Positions 16,172 to 64,000 of a DNA stretch of 64,000 nt are shown here, piece by piece. Made by a program: the position numbers and the translations under genes. The DNA is from Modicisalibacter luteus DSM 23508 (lineage in GTDB: Bacteria > Pseudomonadota > Gammaproteobacteria > Pseudomonadales > Halomonadaceae). The notes below the pieces were generated by a model. That model saw nothing but the letters and a program-made list of their open reading frames with translations. It had not been told where the DNA came from and did not search any database. The DNA is taken from NCBI RefSeq assembly GCF_000378505.1, contig NZ_KB899995.1, positions 62,001 through 126,000 of the forward strand. Direction: 5' to 3'. The stretch's first letter is position 1, and each line of letters opens with the position of its first letter.

Positions 16172-16375
16172 ATGGCAACTGGCACAGTTAAGTGGTTCAA
16201 CGACTCCAAAGGCTTCGGTTTCATCTCTCCCTCTGACGGCGGTGATGACCTGTTTGCCCACTTCTCTGAAATTCAGGCTGACGGCTTCAAGTCCCTGCAG
16301 GATGGTCAACAAGTCTCTTTTGACGTGACCCAGGGCAAGAAAGGCCTTCAGGCTGCGAACATCAAGCCTCTCTAA
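16172..16375 (+). CDS. Cold-shock domain protein (CspA family)
   Basis: 67-residue single-domain RNA/DNA chaperone. RNP1 KGFGFISP and RNP2 DLFAHFSEI are intact, preceded by GTVKWFNDS, and it ends [11 protein letters not shown] 16172 has AAGGAA at 16159-16164. Monocistronic: its own promoter with a long leader lies upstream, and a strong terminator downstream. Whether it is cold-induced or constitutive cannot be told from the protein; the leader favours induction. Confidence 0.95.
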
Positions 16376-16414
16376 CTCCGGTTAGTCTGCGCTTTCGAGC
16401 CGTAAGGCTTCGAG

Positions 16415-16449
16415 CACGAAAGCCCGCTTAGGCGGGCTTTCGTGTTTTT
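16415..16449 (+). terminator. Terminator of the cold-shock gene
   Basis: Stem CACGAAAGCCCGC / GGCGGGCTTTCGTG followed by TTTTT, 39 bases after the stop. Confidence 0.95.
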
Positions 16450-16647
16450 GTATGTCTGATTTCTGAGTTAATAGACCGTGATTGGATATCGGTAAGAACC
16501 AGGTACTGGCTGCCTCCCGACAGCGCTAGCTGAAGCGTATGCAACAAGCGGCTCTACACCGTGGGGCTCTAGCTCTACTCAGGCGCCCTTGTACCGAAAT
16601 CGTCTAACCCAAGTTAATTGGAGTTACTTTTTTAAACATTACAGTTA

Positions 16648-16676
16648 TTGAATGTAAGGCGCTATGCTTCTAGTAT
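16648..16676 (+). promoter_or_regulatory. Promoter candidate for the GGA-rich sRNA
   Basis: TTGAAT at 16648-16653, 17-base spacer, TAGTAT at 16671-16676, giving a start near 16683, just before the first stem. The overlapping dyad TTACA-N9-TGTAA (16639-16657) could bind a regulator. No convincing GacA-type TGTAAG-N6-CTTACA box was found upstream. Confidence 0.45.
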
Positions 16677-16682
16677 CTTGGA

Positions 16683-16877
16683 TACGGTAAGCAGCGGCCA
16701 AGGATAGGCTGCCAGTTCAGGAGAGCGCGGTCAGGATGACCGAGGCTTGGGAAGGTAGGCGATTAAAGGCAGGAAGCCATCGACGCCAAGGATCCCGGAA
16801 CGGCTTACCTAATTGCAGTAGTTCCCTTGCGTACTGCATAGCCCGGTCTCCCCGCCCTAGGGGAGCCGGGCTGTTTT
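16683..16877 (+). ncRNA. Putative CsrA/RsmA-sequestering sRNA (RsmZ/CsrB-like)
   Basis: A non-coding stretch of about 195 nt with its own promoter candidate and a strong terminator. Seven GGA motifs occur in 98 bases (16702, 16720, 16734, 16750, 16772, 16790, 16797). Several sit in hairpin loops: GCAGC...GCTGC (16691-16712) around AAGGAT; a perfect 5-bp stem CGGTC-AGGAT-GACCG (16728-16742); GCTT-GGGAAGGT-AGGC; and GGC-AGGAA-GCC (16768-16778). Loop-exposed AGGA is the CsrA/RsmA binding site, and tandem arrays of it define CsrB, RsmY and RsmZ RNAs. After the array come TGCAGTA/TACTGCA (16814-16838) and the terminator. Sequence alone does not tell RsmY from RsmZ. Confidence 0.75.
16840..16877 (+). 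terminator. Intrinsic terminator of the sRNA
   Basis: Stem AGCCCGG-T-CTCCCC / GGGGAG-CCGGGCT with a short loop, followed by GTTTT, on the plus strand. Confidence 0.88.
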
Positions 16878-16879
16878 GA

Positions 16880-17226
16880 TTTGCCCGCCACCATTCGTGC
16901 CGTGTGGTACAAGATCACCCTCGACAGCGGTTGCAATGCTCGGCATACAGCCAATGAATCAATCCTCCGCTAAAGAAAACGTGGCTTCGCCTGCCCTTGG
17001 CTAACGACTCCGCCAATTCGCTAATGTCTGGAAGTCTCTGCCGTTTCGCCTCGCTTGCCTGCGCTCCGAGGCATTACCTAGGCTGCCTTTATTAGCGATC
17101 TTTATTTTAGCTTTTGGTTCTTCGGGTCGAGCATGTAGCCGAGCCTTTAGTCTGGCTGCCCTGCAGCCCGCCGGCCCTCTCGTTTGATCCGATCACACCA
17201 AAGCCTGGAGCGAAGAGAGGTGAATC
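16880..17226. other. Leader region of the RTX protein gene
   Basis: No gene-like frame. It presumably holds the promoter of the large secreted protein, but no convincing -35/-10 pair was picked. Confidence 0.4.
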
Positions 17227-20200
17227 ATGGTGGCTCAAGTTGAATACAGGGTAACGAGCCAGTGGGATGATGGGTTCGTGTTCGAGGTAGTACTGTCCAA
17301 CAGCGGTACCCGGACTATCAATGACTATCAGGTCGGCTTCAACCTCCCAGGTGAAGTCACGCAGGTCTGGAATGGACGTATCTCGGCGCAGGAGGGAGAA
17401 CGCTACCTCATTGCGGATGACGATGAGAGCAATGATCTTGCTCCTGGCGAAACAACCAGTTTCAAGGTCAAGGCGCTAAACAGTAGTGCACAAATGCCAA
17501 CTGGTTTCACGGTCAATGATCAGCCGGTAATCGTCGACGCCCCAGCGGCAGAGGATCCAGCCAGTGAGGTCAGCCAACGCTTCGTCGATGGCATCGCTTC
17601 AGTCCAGCCGGGAATAACCGCCGAGGCTCTTGAAACGTTGCTCAATGAGGCACCCCAAGGCGCTACCGTACGTCTGGCTCCTGGCGAGTTCGCGCTGAAT
17701 GATTCGATTGTGGTAACGCGCTCGGATGTTTCCCTGGTTGGGGCGGGTTCCGGAGAAACGATACTGACTTTTACCGATGAAGCACTGGCCAAGGATGATC
17801 GGCAAGGCCTTCTTTTCCAGGGAATCCAGACTGCCAGCGCGGGAACGCTGCAGGCTGACTTGTCCGAAGGAGACCGGACCCTGGCGCTCGAAAATGGTCA
17901 CCGGCTTGAGGTCGGCGATACGGTGCGTCTATGGCAAGACAATGATGCGGAGTATTTCGAAGAGATCGGCAATACGACCTGGCAGGGCAGCAGCAATACA
18001 CCGCTGCGTACCAGCATGGCCAAGATTGTGGCGCTCGAAGGCAATACGGCGACGTTAGATCGCGGCGTCCATTTCGATATGGAGGGCGGCAAGGCGCGAA
18101 TACAGCGCTTTGATGCACTTGAGAATATCACCGTGGAGGGCTTTTCGGTCGGCTATCGTCTAGGAACGCCCGACCCTGCCGTCTTCAGCAACACGCTATC
18201 TGAACTCAAGGGTTATCATGCCGTGGAGTTCGATGGCACCTTCGGGGGGCATATCGAAGATGTCGAGATAATCAATGGCCCTTCCGTGGCTTTCGAGTTC
18301 TCACGCTCCGTGGATGTTTCGGCAGATGGCTTGCGTGCTAGCGGCGCTTTCAATAAAGGAAGCGGGGGTAACGGGTATGCATACGAACTGCGTGAGAGCT
18401 ATGACGGCACCTTTACGAACCTGGAAGATAGCGGGATGCGACATAGCGCCCTTTTTGCTTCCTGGCGCTCCTCGGTCGGAAATAACGTGCATGTCGAGTC
18501 GACTGACCGCGATATCAACTTCCATGGCGGGCAGGACCAGAACAATACGGTCCATGTCGACCAGTCCCTACGTGATCCGGCGACTGATAACCTGTCTCCG
18601 GTGCTCTGGATCAATCAGGGCGGGGAAACCTTCGGTGCTCCTACCGATCCTACAGCGAACCAGATAGCGTTCAATTATGTAGTGGGTTCCCGGCGCGACG
18701 ATGTCATACCGGGCTCGGACCTTGGGGTGTATCTGGACGGGGCTCGCGGCCATGACACATTGTTGGGCGGAGCTGCTGATGACATCTTGACTGGAGGCGC
18801 GGGCAACGATGTCCTTGAGGGTGGGGAAGGTGCTGATACGGCGCTTATGCTAGCGAGTATCGAAAACTACACGATCCGCGCATTGAACGACGGCAGTATC
18901 TTCCTTGATGGTAACAACGATGACGATCTGCTGATCGACATGGAACGTGCCGTGTTCGCAGAGGGTGCTGTCCTGGATGTTGATTCCCGAACTGTCACGC
19001 AGGGACAGCCCATGGAGGTTCCGAGCGCCGAGGCAATCCTGGCGGATGACGAGCTTATCTTTACGCCCCCACCTGAGGGTGACGGACTCACGGAACCGCC
19101 TGGTGTCGATGACACCTTGGAAGTGTCCGCTTCGGCTCGATTCGAAAGCGTCAGCCGTTGGTCGTCAGGTTATGTACTGGCGGTCAAGATAACCAACACA
19201 GGCGAGACGGAGATTGAGAATCCTCGTGTCAGCTTCGATTTGCCCACCGAGATTACCCAGTTCTATGGAGCAAGCCTGCTTTCGCAGCAGGGAGACACGT
19301 ATACGGTTAATCTGGGGGAGGGCGAACGTCTAACTTCTGGCGAGACTCAGCACTTTTCCTTCAAAGCCTACGCCCCGGAAAGCCACCTTCCAGAAACACT
19401 CCGGCTCAACGAGCATATAGTTGATACCGACACGACTGCGATATTCGCAGGTGACGATAGCGAGCCCGAACTCAGCGCGCAAACGAAGATCACCAGTAAC
19501 GTTATCAGCAGCTGGGGGAGTGGTTACACTGCCGAAGTCATTGTGGAAAATACCTCAAGCTTGGCCCTGGTCGATCCGGCGATCAGTTTCGATCTACCAG
19601 GAGGCATCGATACCCTGTGGAATGGAGTCGTCGAGCGAGAGGGCAGCCGTTACACCATCACGGATGACAACCCTGCCACGCTGCAGCCAGGTGAAAGCTG
19701 GCGTTTTTCTTACAAATCCTACGATGCTACCCAGACTTTGCCGACCGACCCTCAGGTCGTTGGCAAAGTAGAAGCGCCAATAAGCGAACCAGCCGTGACC
19801 CAGGCCAACATTATCAGTGCCTGGTCGGGGGGATATACCACCGAAGTGTTGATCGAGAACACCTCGGCCACCGCCATTGCCAACCCTACTGCCAGCTTCG
19901 AGCTTGCGGCGGATATCGATACGCTCTGGAACGGAATGATGGAGCGTGAGGGAAACCGATATACGGTATCGGACGATAGTTCTAACGTACTCCAGCCCGG
20001 TGATGTGTGGCGCTTCACGTATCGGGTCTATGACGACCAACAATCCTTGCCCAGTGATGTCGTAGTGGAGGGTCAGGCAGAACCGGCAAAAACCGTTCCT
20101 GGCGAGTACCAAGCCAACGTGGATAGCGACGGCAACCTTGTCACGGGCGAACCCGGCAGCACCCTGGTCGGGTCCGATGGTGACGATATACTCAATGGTC

Positions 20201-20595
20201 TGCGTGGAGATGACTATTTGACCGGGGGCAATGGAGAAGACCGTTTGGTAGGTGGTCGCGGCGCCGACAAGCTGACCGGGGGAGCCGGTGCGGATACCTT
20301 CGCATACCTGTCCACCTTCGATTCTACACCGCTGGGCACCGACACGTTGCTGGACTTCAATCGCCTAGAGGGTGACCGGATCGATGTGAGTGCGGTTGAT
20401 GCCAGTACCGAACTGGAGGGTCAGCAGAACTTTACCTGGCTGGGCACTCAGGGGTTCAGCGGCAAAGGCGGAGAACTGCGTACTTCGGGGGCGAGCCTAC
20501 AAGGTGATGTGAATGGCGACGGCGTGGTCGACCTGGAAATTGAAGTTCTTGGCGTGAATTCGCTCGCTCCTGGCGATGTGGTAATACAGAAATAA
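17227..20595 (+). CDS. Large secreted CBM2-like / beta-helix / RTX protein
   Basis: 1122 residues without a signal peptide. Modules in order: CBM2-like domain (about 3-98; NSGTRTIND, WNGRIS, LAPGETTSF); a right-handed beta-helix of pectate-lyase type (about 144-490; GATVRLAPGEFAL, DVSLVGAGSGETIL); RTX calcium repeats (about 505-540; GGAGNDVLEGGEGAD); three more CBM2-like domains (about 631-730, 749-845, 856-950), each with NT[SG], WNG/FYG and LxPGE/D patterns; a second RTX block (about 977-1027; GSDGDDILNG, GGAGADTF); and a serralysin-like end (GDVNGDGVVDLEIEV). RTX blocks plus no signal indicate type I secretion. The beta-helix probably acts on a polysaccharide, but the catalytic residues cannot be named. 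ATG 17227 follows GAGAGGTG. No type I exporter gene is nearby. Confidence 0.85.
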   Translation: MVAQVEYRVTSQWDDGFVFEVVLSNSGTRTINDYQVGFNLPGEVTQVWNGRISAQEGERYLIADDDESNDLAPGETTSFKVKALNSSAQMPTGFTVNDQPVIVDAPAAEDPASEVSQRFVDGIASVQPGITAEALETLLNEAPQGATVRLAPGEFALNDSIVVTRSDVSLVGAGSGETILTFTDEALAKDDRQGLLFQGIQTASAGTLQADLSEGDRTLALENGHRLEVGDTVRLWQDNDAEYFEEIGNTTWQGSSNTPLRTSMAKIVALEGNTATLDRGVHFDMEGGKARIQRFDALENITVEGFSVGYRLGTPDPAVFSNTLSELKGYHAVEFDGTFGGHIEDVEIINGPSVAFEFSRSVDVSADGLRASGAFNKGSGGNGYAYELRESYDGTFTNLEDSGMRHSALFASWRSSVGNNVHVESTDRDINFHGGQDQNNTVHVDQSLRDPATDNLSPVLWINQGGETFGAPTDPTANQIAFNYVVGSRRDDVIPGSDLGVYLDGARGHDTLLGGAADDILTGGAGNDVLEGGEGADTALMLASIENYTIRALNDGSIFLDGNNDDDLLIDMERAVFAEGAVLDVDSRTVTQGQPMEVPSAEAILADDELIFTPPPEGDGLTEPPGVDDTLEVSASARFESVSRWSSGYVLAVKITNTGETEIENPRVSFDLPTEITQFYGASLLSQQGDTYTVNLGEGERLTSGETQHFSFKAYAPESHLPETLRLNEHIVDTDTTAIFAGDDSEPELSAQTKITSNVISSWGSGYTAEVIVENTSSLALVDPAISFDLPGGIDTLWNGVVEREGSRYTITDDNPATLQPGESWRFSYKSYDATQTLPTDPQVVGKVEAPISEPAVTQANIISAWSGGYTTEVLIENTSATAIANPTASFELAADIDTLWNGMMEREGNRYTVSDDSSNVLQPGDVWRFTYRVYDDQQSLPSDVVVEGQAEPAKTVPGEYQANVDSDGNLVTGEPGSTLVGSDGDDILNGLRGDDYLTGGNGEDRLVGGRGADKLTGGAGADTFAYLSTFDSTPLGTDTLLDFNRLEGDRIDVSAVDASTELEGQQNFTWLGTQGFSGKGGELRTSGASLQGDVNGDGVVDLEIEVLGVNSLAPGDVVIQK

Positions 20596-63258: not shown

Positions 63259-63265
63259 GTGCTCA

Positions 63266-63287
63266 GGCCGGCTTGGGCCGGCCTTTT
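63266..63287 (+). terminator. Terminator of the glyA-sox operon
   Basis: Stem GGCCGGC / GCCGGCC with a four-base loop, then TTTT, directly after soxG. purU follows 31 bases later, so some read-through is possible. Confidence 0.8.
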
Positions 63288-63318
63288 CCCATATAAGCCG
63301 ACAACACGTAGGGACACC

Positions 63319-64000
63319 ATGAGCCGAATGGCCGATACCTGGATTCTTGCCGCCCAGTGCCCTAGCCGTCTGGGGACGGTAGATGTCGTGACGCGCTTCC
63401 TGAAAGAGCAGCGTTGTTACATCACCGAACTCAATTCCTTCGATGATCGATTGGGTGGCCGCTTTTTTATCCGTGCCGAGTTTCGCCCCGAAGTGGAGGG
63501 ATTCCGTGGGGAGGCGTTTCAGGAGGCCTTCGCGTCGCGTGCCGCGGAGTTCGATATGGACTTTGAGCTGACCCCGCCGGAGAAACGCACGCGGGCCGTT
63601 ATCCTTGTCTCAAAAGCCGATCACTGCTTGAACGACCTGCTGTATCGCTATCGCATTGGGCAATTGCCTCTCGATATTCGTGCCGTCGTTTCCAACCATC
63701 CGGACCTTGAGCCGCTGGCGAAGTGGCATGGCCTGCCTTACTACCATTGTCCGATCACTCCGGAGACCAAGCCGCAGCAGGAGGCGCAGGTAAGGAACAT
63801 CATCGAGGAGACCGAGGCGGAACTGGTCGTATTGGCGCGCTACATGCAGGTGCTGTCACCGGCCATGTGTGAGCTGTTGGCTGGGCGTGCCATCAATATT
63901 CACCATTCTCTTCTGCCTGGGTTCAAGGGCGCCAGGCCCTATCACCAGGCGTACGAGAAGGGCGTCAAGCTCGTCGGCGCGACGGCGCATTATATCAACA
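63319..64000 (+). CDS. purU: Formyltetrahydrofolate deformylase PurU (cut by the window end)
   Basis: First 227 codons only; the frame is still open at 64000. N-terminal ACT domain (about 8-85; ILAAQCPSRLGTVDVVTRFL, CYITELNSFDD) and the formyl-transferase fold with VVLARYMQVLSP and INIHHSLLPGFKGARPYHQA, where the Asn-His catalytic pair lies. It hydrolyses 10-formyl-THF to formate and THF, draining the one-carbon units made by the sarcosine oxidase. GGGA before ATG 63319. Common next to sox genes. Confidence 0.93.
   Translation, partial: MSRMADTWILAAQCPSRLGTVDVVTRFLKEQRCYITELNSFDDRLGGRFFIRAEFRPEVEGFRGEAFQEAFASRAAEFDMDFELTPPEKRTRAVILVSKADHCLNDLLYRYRIGQLPLDIRAVVSNHPDLEPLAKWHGLPYYHCPITPETKPQQEAQVRNIIEETEAELVVLARYMQVLSPAMCELLAGRAINIHHSLLPGFKGARPYHQAYEKGVKLVGATAHYIN

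Follow-up and report, generated by a model that had tools for sequence, protein, structure and literature searches.

Csr/Rsm decoy sRNAs are already known to occur in several copies per genome and to act without Gac. Passages of a 2020 review (PMC7366521) name RsmX1-5, RsmY and RsmZ in P. syringae and RsmZ1-7 and RsmY1-2 in A. vinelandii, describe RsmV and RsmW as Gac-independent decoys, and report csrA genes in 30 of 2517 phage genomes; a plasmid-borne RsmQ is described in a portion of PMC9928087. A consensus GacA box is given in part of PMC4950607, where it sits at -75 before rsmY and at -196 before rsmZ. In Halomonas anticariensis GacS-GacA has been studied, and its Csr/Rsm decoy sRNAs were listed as unknown in the corresponding passage of the same review (PMC7366521). 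No description of a Halomonas Csr/Gac sRNA was found in the open-licence PMC literature.

We analysed a 64 kb stretch (the window) of the genome of Modicisalibacter luteus DSM 23508, also called Halomonas lutea (4,533,090 bases in 42 contigs). An RNA gene at 16682-16877 on the + strand, here called the window copy, very probably specifies an independently transcribed sRNA of about 195 nt working as a CsrA decoy, as judged from its sequence and its relatives. Together with GGA-rich units near gltX and a CsrB-like RNA, the family to which it belongs provides candidates for the gap in Halomonas decoy sRNAs.

GGA motifs and fold of the window RNA

Seven GGA motifs lie within 98 nt of the window copy (at 16702, 16720, 16734, 16750, 16772, 16790 and 16797), a count that bears out an earlier sequence-only reading of this DNA, and an eighth lies within the terminator stem. 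Five of the sites have the form A(N)GGA (16700, 16719, 16733, 16771 and 16788). Elsewhere in the window, seven GGA per 98 nt recur just once on the + strand, and the maximum on the - strand is six. That second cluster, near 63484, is within an open frame (63259-63999) and is probably a chance product of coding sequence.

The sRNA consists of a multibranched GGA-rich core and a terminator, its start being inferred. The conserved core (16682-16809, + strand) matches our covariance model R1 with 143.3 bits, and its consensus fold is a closed multibranch in which stem P1 encloses hairpins P2, P3 and P4 and the long arm P5. The closing stem pairs GGTAAGC (16686-16692) with GCTTACC (16803-16809), and five of its six modelled pairs have changed on both sides. 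P2 (16694-16712, GCGGCC-AAGGATA-GGCTGC) is followed by P3 (16715-16726, GUUC-AGGA-GAGC), with both-side changes in all four pairs, and by P4 (16728-16742, CGGUC-AGGAU-GACCG), the best CsrA-like site, with such changes in four of five pairs. The P5 arm (16747-16797) has an outer GGG/CCC stem, a purine internal loop (AAGGTA / AAGGA), an inner GGCG/CGCC stem and the terminal hairpin P5a, GGC-AGGAA-GCC.

Folded as a single sequence, the 195 nt of the window copy reach -89.7 kcal/mol (z -3.6), which none of 200 shuffles equalled. This fold agrees with the consensus in P1, P2, P4 and P5a; P3 is absent from it, and the GUUC of P3 pairs elsewhere. The hairpins with AGGA in the loop that the sequence-only reading had proposed, P4 as the best of them, are found in the consensus fold, with P3 confined to it. 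By a simple count, only four of the eight GGA in the window copy lie in a hairpin loop closed by at least 4 pairs, and the same criterion holds for 200 of the 896 GGA on the + strand of the window. Taken alone, the GGA and hairpin pattern of this single copy is suggestive only; conservation among the relatives is what makes it, in our judgement, convincing.

An intrinsic terminator (16840-16877, + strand; AGCCCGG...CCGGGCT followed by TGTTTT) is apparent in both sequence and fold and is alike in most other copies. Its stem covers 16840-16872 and runs into T, and a short hairpin lies between it and the core. The strong terminator proposed earlier thus stands, though a terminator scan did not list it, a miss that we think is due to a bulge.

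Family distribution, conservation and genomic neighbours

BLAST and the covariance model agree on seven family copies in the M. luteus genome, the window copy among them. BLAST also found copies in five of the genus's 13 other genomes, whereas 24 genomes searched from outside the genus had none; among named phages and plasmids the window RNA had no BLAST match. Model R1 was built on 13 of the 14 copies, the divergent L014 being left out, and detected 24 copies in 11 of the 14 genus genomes, one of them weak (29.2 bits). Under stricter filters it matched 15 of 275 genomes of the family, belonging to four of 24 genera; in a sample of 390 genomes from the order it matched two, each of them a member of this genus. 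Carriers of the core include Modicisalibacter ilicicola, M. xianhensis and M. muralis as well as several Halomonas sp. strains.

CsrB-like RNAs score 13.8-19.0 bits with R1, so that matches below about 30 bits are regarded as weak; these comprise a second copy in genome G008 and the matches in G144 and G210, and the match in G145 (33.2 bits) is near that limit. The G144 locus has two neighbour genes, gltX among them, in common with the family copies of the gltX type, and the G145 locus has one of those two and a further ORF. To ten of 21 stretches chosen by a family pattern R1 gave no more than 21.3 bits; these ten (from Streptomyces and others) were taken as chance, and the other 11 were halomonads.

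Stem conservation was assessed in an alignment fitted to R1 (32 matches, 29 distinct rows), in which 95.7% of cells were paired and 25 of 31 pairs had changed on both sides. None of 500 shuffles, which ignore relatedness, reached any of five measures, and sliding the pairing partners lowered the paired cells to 26-45%; the alignment includes the weak members csrB (18.7 bits) and G210 (27.9 bits). A model-free MAFFT alignment of 14 copies likewise contained pair-keeping changes on both sides in 14 of 46 predicted pairs. The GGA motifs were counted in 29 rows, after the duplicates L054, L059 and L071 had been dropped and with csrB and G210 kept. They persist while the stems change. All 29 rows have GGA in the P4 loop, 28 have it on the 3' strand of the internal loop, 27 in the P5a loop, 23 in the P3 loop and 21 in the P2 loop. 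On the 5' strand of the internal loop GGA occurs in 15 of the 29 sequences, the window copy not being one of them. Covarying stems with retained GGA loops are the pattern expected if CsrA reads the loops. A family tree of 27 sequences, with G210 and csrB left out, had low support near the window copy.

The sequence-only reading had likened the RNA to RsmZ and CsrB; membership in those families, or in RsmY, was not borne out by the Rfam covariance search. PrrB_RsmZ (RF00166) had no match in the window at Rfam thresholds, none at E <=10 in 16450-17230 and none in the whole genome at E <=0.001. RsmY (RF00195), RsmX (RF02144) and CsrB (RF00018, gathering score 71) had no match at gathering score in the window and none up to E 10 in 16450-17230. 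Two other models gave sub-threshold matches that included the 3' terminator, sX13 (RF02232; 21.6 bits and E 0.093 against a gathering score of 50) and Atu_C7.

The window copy is alike over about 220-270 bases to the copies on contigs C14, C2 and C20 and over 116-172 bases to four others, mostly without flanks; with the C2 and C20 copies, the BLAST match begins at 16623, ends at 16883-16886 and leaves out the flanks. Upstream of the window copy are an M48 peptidase gene, whose homologues in the other 13 genomes are only 50-55% identical, and a CspA-type cold-shock gene (16172-16375, + strand; PF00313, 3.2e-31) with its own terminator at 16412-16447. Downstream lies the gene for a protein with CBM2 and RTX repeats (17227-20595, + strand), and none of these genes has phage character. 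Among ORFs of at least 70 aa within about 5 kb, a single protein cluster recurs at three other loci, at differing places; this cluster, c4, lies some 4.6-5.4 kb upstream of the window copy and is not the RTX gene. A broken cspA-like sequence adjoins the C14 copy, an intact cspA adjoins the window copy, and a second gene for the identical CspA protein is located about 4.5 kb from the CsrB-like RNA described below (cspA sequences at L019 6714-6862 and L025 10758-10958); the broken sequence is the second BLAST match in the C14 region. Other family members occupy genome-shared places beside the bacterial genes gltX, phoD, exoD and mdoG. The finding that would speak against a decoy, GGA motifs lost beside conserved flanks, is reversed here: the RNA is conserved while the neighbours of most copies differ.

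Promoter regions, CsrA and further GGA-rich RNAs

The sequence-only reading had named a promoter candidate, and promoter-like boxes lie upstream of the core. The -35-like TTGAAT (16648-16653, + strand) has TTG or TTTG at the same place in many copies, and the -10-like TAGTAT (16671-16676, + strand), after a 17-nt spacer, appears as TANNNT among the dispersed copies. The position of TTGAAT-17-TAGTAT is thus conserved, but it scores 8/12, and a sigma-70 scan of 16400-17230 returned no site at its 9-of-12 threshold. Further upstream is an imperfect palindrome, CTAACCCAAGTTAA (16604-16617), a putative activator site with one mismatch to TTAACNNNNGTTAA. Its centre falls at about -71.5 if transcription starts, as we infer, at the first base of the core, and this is a usual position for an activator site. 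Palindromes of the TTAACNNNNGTTAA type, with at most two mismatches and starting at -73 to -78, were present in eight of 13 dispersed copies, and the match is perfect in the M. muralis prophage copy. As the promoters of dispersed copies go back to a common ancestor, their likeness cannot count as independent evidence.

The Gac/Rsm switch had been proposed to act on the window copy. The GacA box TGTAAGN6CTTACA was searched with up to two mismatches. The whole 64 kb window is without one, and so are all 13 dispersed copies, including the window copy, within 1 kb; direct Gac control of the window copy is therefore not supported. Five gltX-type family copies do have the box, perfect in four and with one mismatch in the fifth, at 274-280 bases before the core; they lie about 2 kb upstream of gltX (PF00749) in strains PR-M31, 2B2-126-J, M20 and 2-214 and in M. 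ilicicola. In 2-214 and 2B2-126-J the box is separated from the core by the TTAACNNNNGTTAA palindrome and a first GGA cluster, so that transcription may start ahead of the core. Altogether, within 1 kb of the 28 RNAs examined, a box was found with no mismatch in four, one mismatch in three and two in one, and 20 had none. The gltX-type relatives in other strains are thus probably switched on by GacA/UvrY. The dispersed type, window copy included, probably answers to another regulator, since it combines the lack of a box with a compact promoter and an upstream palindrome, at which that regulator may act. The contrast between box and palindrome is a natural experiment on how decoys come to respond to a different input signal.

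The M. luteus genome encodes the partners that a decoy would need to act in a Csr network. Three csrA genes are above the Pfam cut-off, and a UvrY/GacA orthologue (50% identity, E 2.3e-67) has uvrC beside it. Two of the csrA genes are in tandem (L026; G000:C12:21226-22014) and the third is near tRNA genes on contig C1. A CsrB-like RNA at C7:174085-174293 (L015 1501-1709) is the sole match of RF00018 in this genome, at 33.2 bits against a cut-off of 71; the 222 nt examined around it contain 11 GGA, and R1 scores it weakly (18.7 bits). Sub-threshold matches to such an RNA were seen in three of the 13 other genus genomes.

About 4.5 kb upstream of gltX in M. luteus (reverse strand of L135) there is another GGA-rich RNA of about 150 nt, with six GGA and a terminator. 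Where this RNA is assumed to start, a GacA-box-like site with two mismatches begins 72 bases further upstream; in its M. xianhensis homologue the box is perfect. Genome G144 belongs to another genus of the family; upstream of its gltX (L099 5740-7300) we read by eye five GGA-rich units in tandem, four of which have CCGGGC terminators. GGA-rich RNA-like units with terminators were also observed upstream of gltX in G009 (L137 380-1170 and 2120-2340). The best Rfam match of the gltX-upstream units was RsmY, with only 21.8-23.7 bits. These units in G144, M. luteus and G009 are probably further Csr decoys. M. luteus would then have at least nine decoy-like genes (seven family copies, the CsrB-like RNA and the gltX-upstream RNA) for three CsrA.

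Prophage copies, alternative explanations and known systems

Two family copies are inside prophages, the C20 copy of M. luteus (L048) and the M. muralis copy (L031). The IMG/VR sequence L078 is 100% identical to the C20 contig and L077 likewise to the M. muralis copy, and they are not independent of these. The C20 prophage has terminase, head protease, tape measure, tail fibre, endolysin, replication protein, repressor and integrase genes, and its RNA copy is flanked by an ORF that matches no PHROG and by a phrog_824-like gene; phrog_824 is annotated as of unknown function, and the gene has a weaker match to a Holliday junction resolvase family. Homologues of these two genes flank the M. muralis copy and are followed by a NinI-like phosphatase gene (phrog_246), with terminase and endolysin on the other side. 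A tRNA gene is situated between the endolysin gene and the RNA copy of this prophage (L080 4953-5024). Compared between the prophages, the flanking proteins show 59% and 48% identity, which indicates that the RNA was kept through considerable phage divergence. The phrog_246 phosphatase gene is also the downstream neighbour of the C5 copy, the C11a copy of McH1-25 and the C21 copy of M. xianhensis, where no clear phage context emerged from the small number of other neighbours tested. A third IMG/VR sequence, L079, corresponds to the gltX-type copy of M. ilicicola; it lies close to one end of a predicted provirus and may be host DNA.

Phages may have been a route of spread for the family. A bolder proposal, which we regard as possible and put forward only tentatively, is that temperate Modicisalibacter phages carry an autonomous decoy RNA against host CsrA, so that lysogeny would shift the whole Csr network, and that the unusually many chromosomal copies of this lineage, among them the window copy, are in part the result of spread by phages, during which another promoter took the place of the GacA input. 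If so, lysogeny would alter the balance of motile and sessile life, carbon flow and perhaps defence. The Rsm/Csr pathway controls CRISPR-Cas in Serratia, according to part of one report (PMC8450108), and a phage could therefore gain from a decoy RNA. No report of a phage-borne or prophage-encoded Csr decoy RNA was found in the open-licence PMC literature.

In the mechanism that we favour, the P1 closing stem would hold a compact multibranched core that displays A(N)GGA in four hairpin loops and in the purine internal loop, five sites in all. CsrA could bind there as two or three dimers and so be drawn off its mRNA targets; transcription of the RNA, CsrA binding and sequestration are all predicted. 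The CsrA-decoy reading draws on the multicopy family, the covariation and retained GGA loops, the three CsrA, the UvrY orthologue, the CsrB-like RNA, the GacA boxes of gltX-type copies and the five tandem G144 units. Against it count the lack of a match to the Rfam Csr/Rsm models, the missing GacA box, the absence of P3 from the single-sequence fold, and the weak members and model fitting of the covariation alignment. Csr/Rsm sRNAs are also usually less alike than the close copies of this family, whose high likeness could mean a further function. The sponge-like sRNA of the sequence-only reading is upheld on this balance, as GGA loops are kept while stems covary, CsrA genes are present, and some members adjoin GacA boxes and other GGA-rich units.

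Two alternatives retain an RNA function. The RNA might be bound by CsrA for stabilization only and have its main task elsewhere, in mRNA base-pairing or with another protein. In its favour, the core beyond the GGA motifs is largely invariant in the first 14 copies (for example GCAG and GCCA before the P2 loop and GCG before P4). What distant members retain, however, is mainly the structure and the GGA loops, the rest of the sequence having changed, and we consider this alternative unlikely. It is very unlikely that the RNA belongs to phages or mobile elements, has no relation to CsrA, serves host takeover, packaging or as an anti-defence decoy, and is GGA-rich by chance; although two copies are in prophages and three more adjoin the NinI-like phosphatase gene, others occupy shared places beside bacterial genes, some of them by GacA boxes and GGA-rich units.

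We give next to no credence to a leader or attenuator of the CBM2/RTX gene, which is on the same strand with its start codon 350 bases past the RNA end: the RNA has its own terminator, and the downstream genes of other copies differ and are often on the other strand. For the same reasons, own terminator and other neighbours elsewhere, the tie to RTX and c-di-GMP genes suggested by the sequence-only reading finds no support. It is equally hard to credit that the copies have no function as RNA and are a dispersed DNA repeat or a degenerate mobile element. The mostly flankless likeness between copies would suit this view, but there are compensatory changes, the layout of promoter, RNA and terminator is kept, and 16480-17100 contains neither direct repeats nor an inverted pair framing an element.

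As a CsrA decoy, the window RNA resembles several known systems. Like RsmX, RsmY and RsmZ of Pseudomonas, the family consists of discrete sRNA genes with several GGA hairpins and several copies per genome, and its gltX-type members share the GacA box with them. In contrast to these RNAs (RF02144, RF00195 and RF00166), the window RNA has no Rfam match, a closed multibranch core and no GacA box, and two members of its family are in prophages. It has CAGGA(U)G-type hairpin loops as CsrB/RsmB (RF00018) does, but five sites in a fixed 128-nt fold plus terminator, whereas the CsrB model spans 356 positions. RsmW of P. aeruginosa likewise has seven GGA, three of them in outer loops, and a weak GacA site far upstream, as given in part of PMC4950607; it is described as deriving from a 3'UTR, whereas the window RNA has promoter-like boxes of its own and many copies. 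CsrR1 and CsrR2 of Alcanivorax dieselolei are also putative CsrA decoys found through GGA motifs and structure outside Pseudomonas; in the portion of PMC9788540 that describes them they are two separate sRNAs and no multicopy family, a distinction that rests on description. With multicopy and Gac-independent decoys already known, a phage-borne decoy RNA is the bold and unproven part of our proposal. Phage csrA genes and plasmid RsmQ, as far as the cited passages describe them, also touch the host Csr network but encode protein, whereas here the decoy RNA itself would be phage-borne, and the prophage copies would add decoy RNAs to the protein homologues through which mobile elements are known to interfere with Csr.
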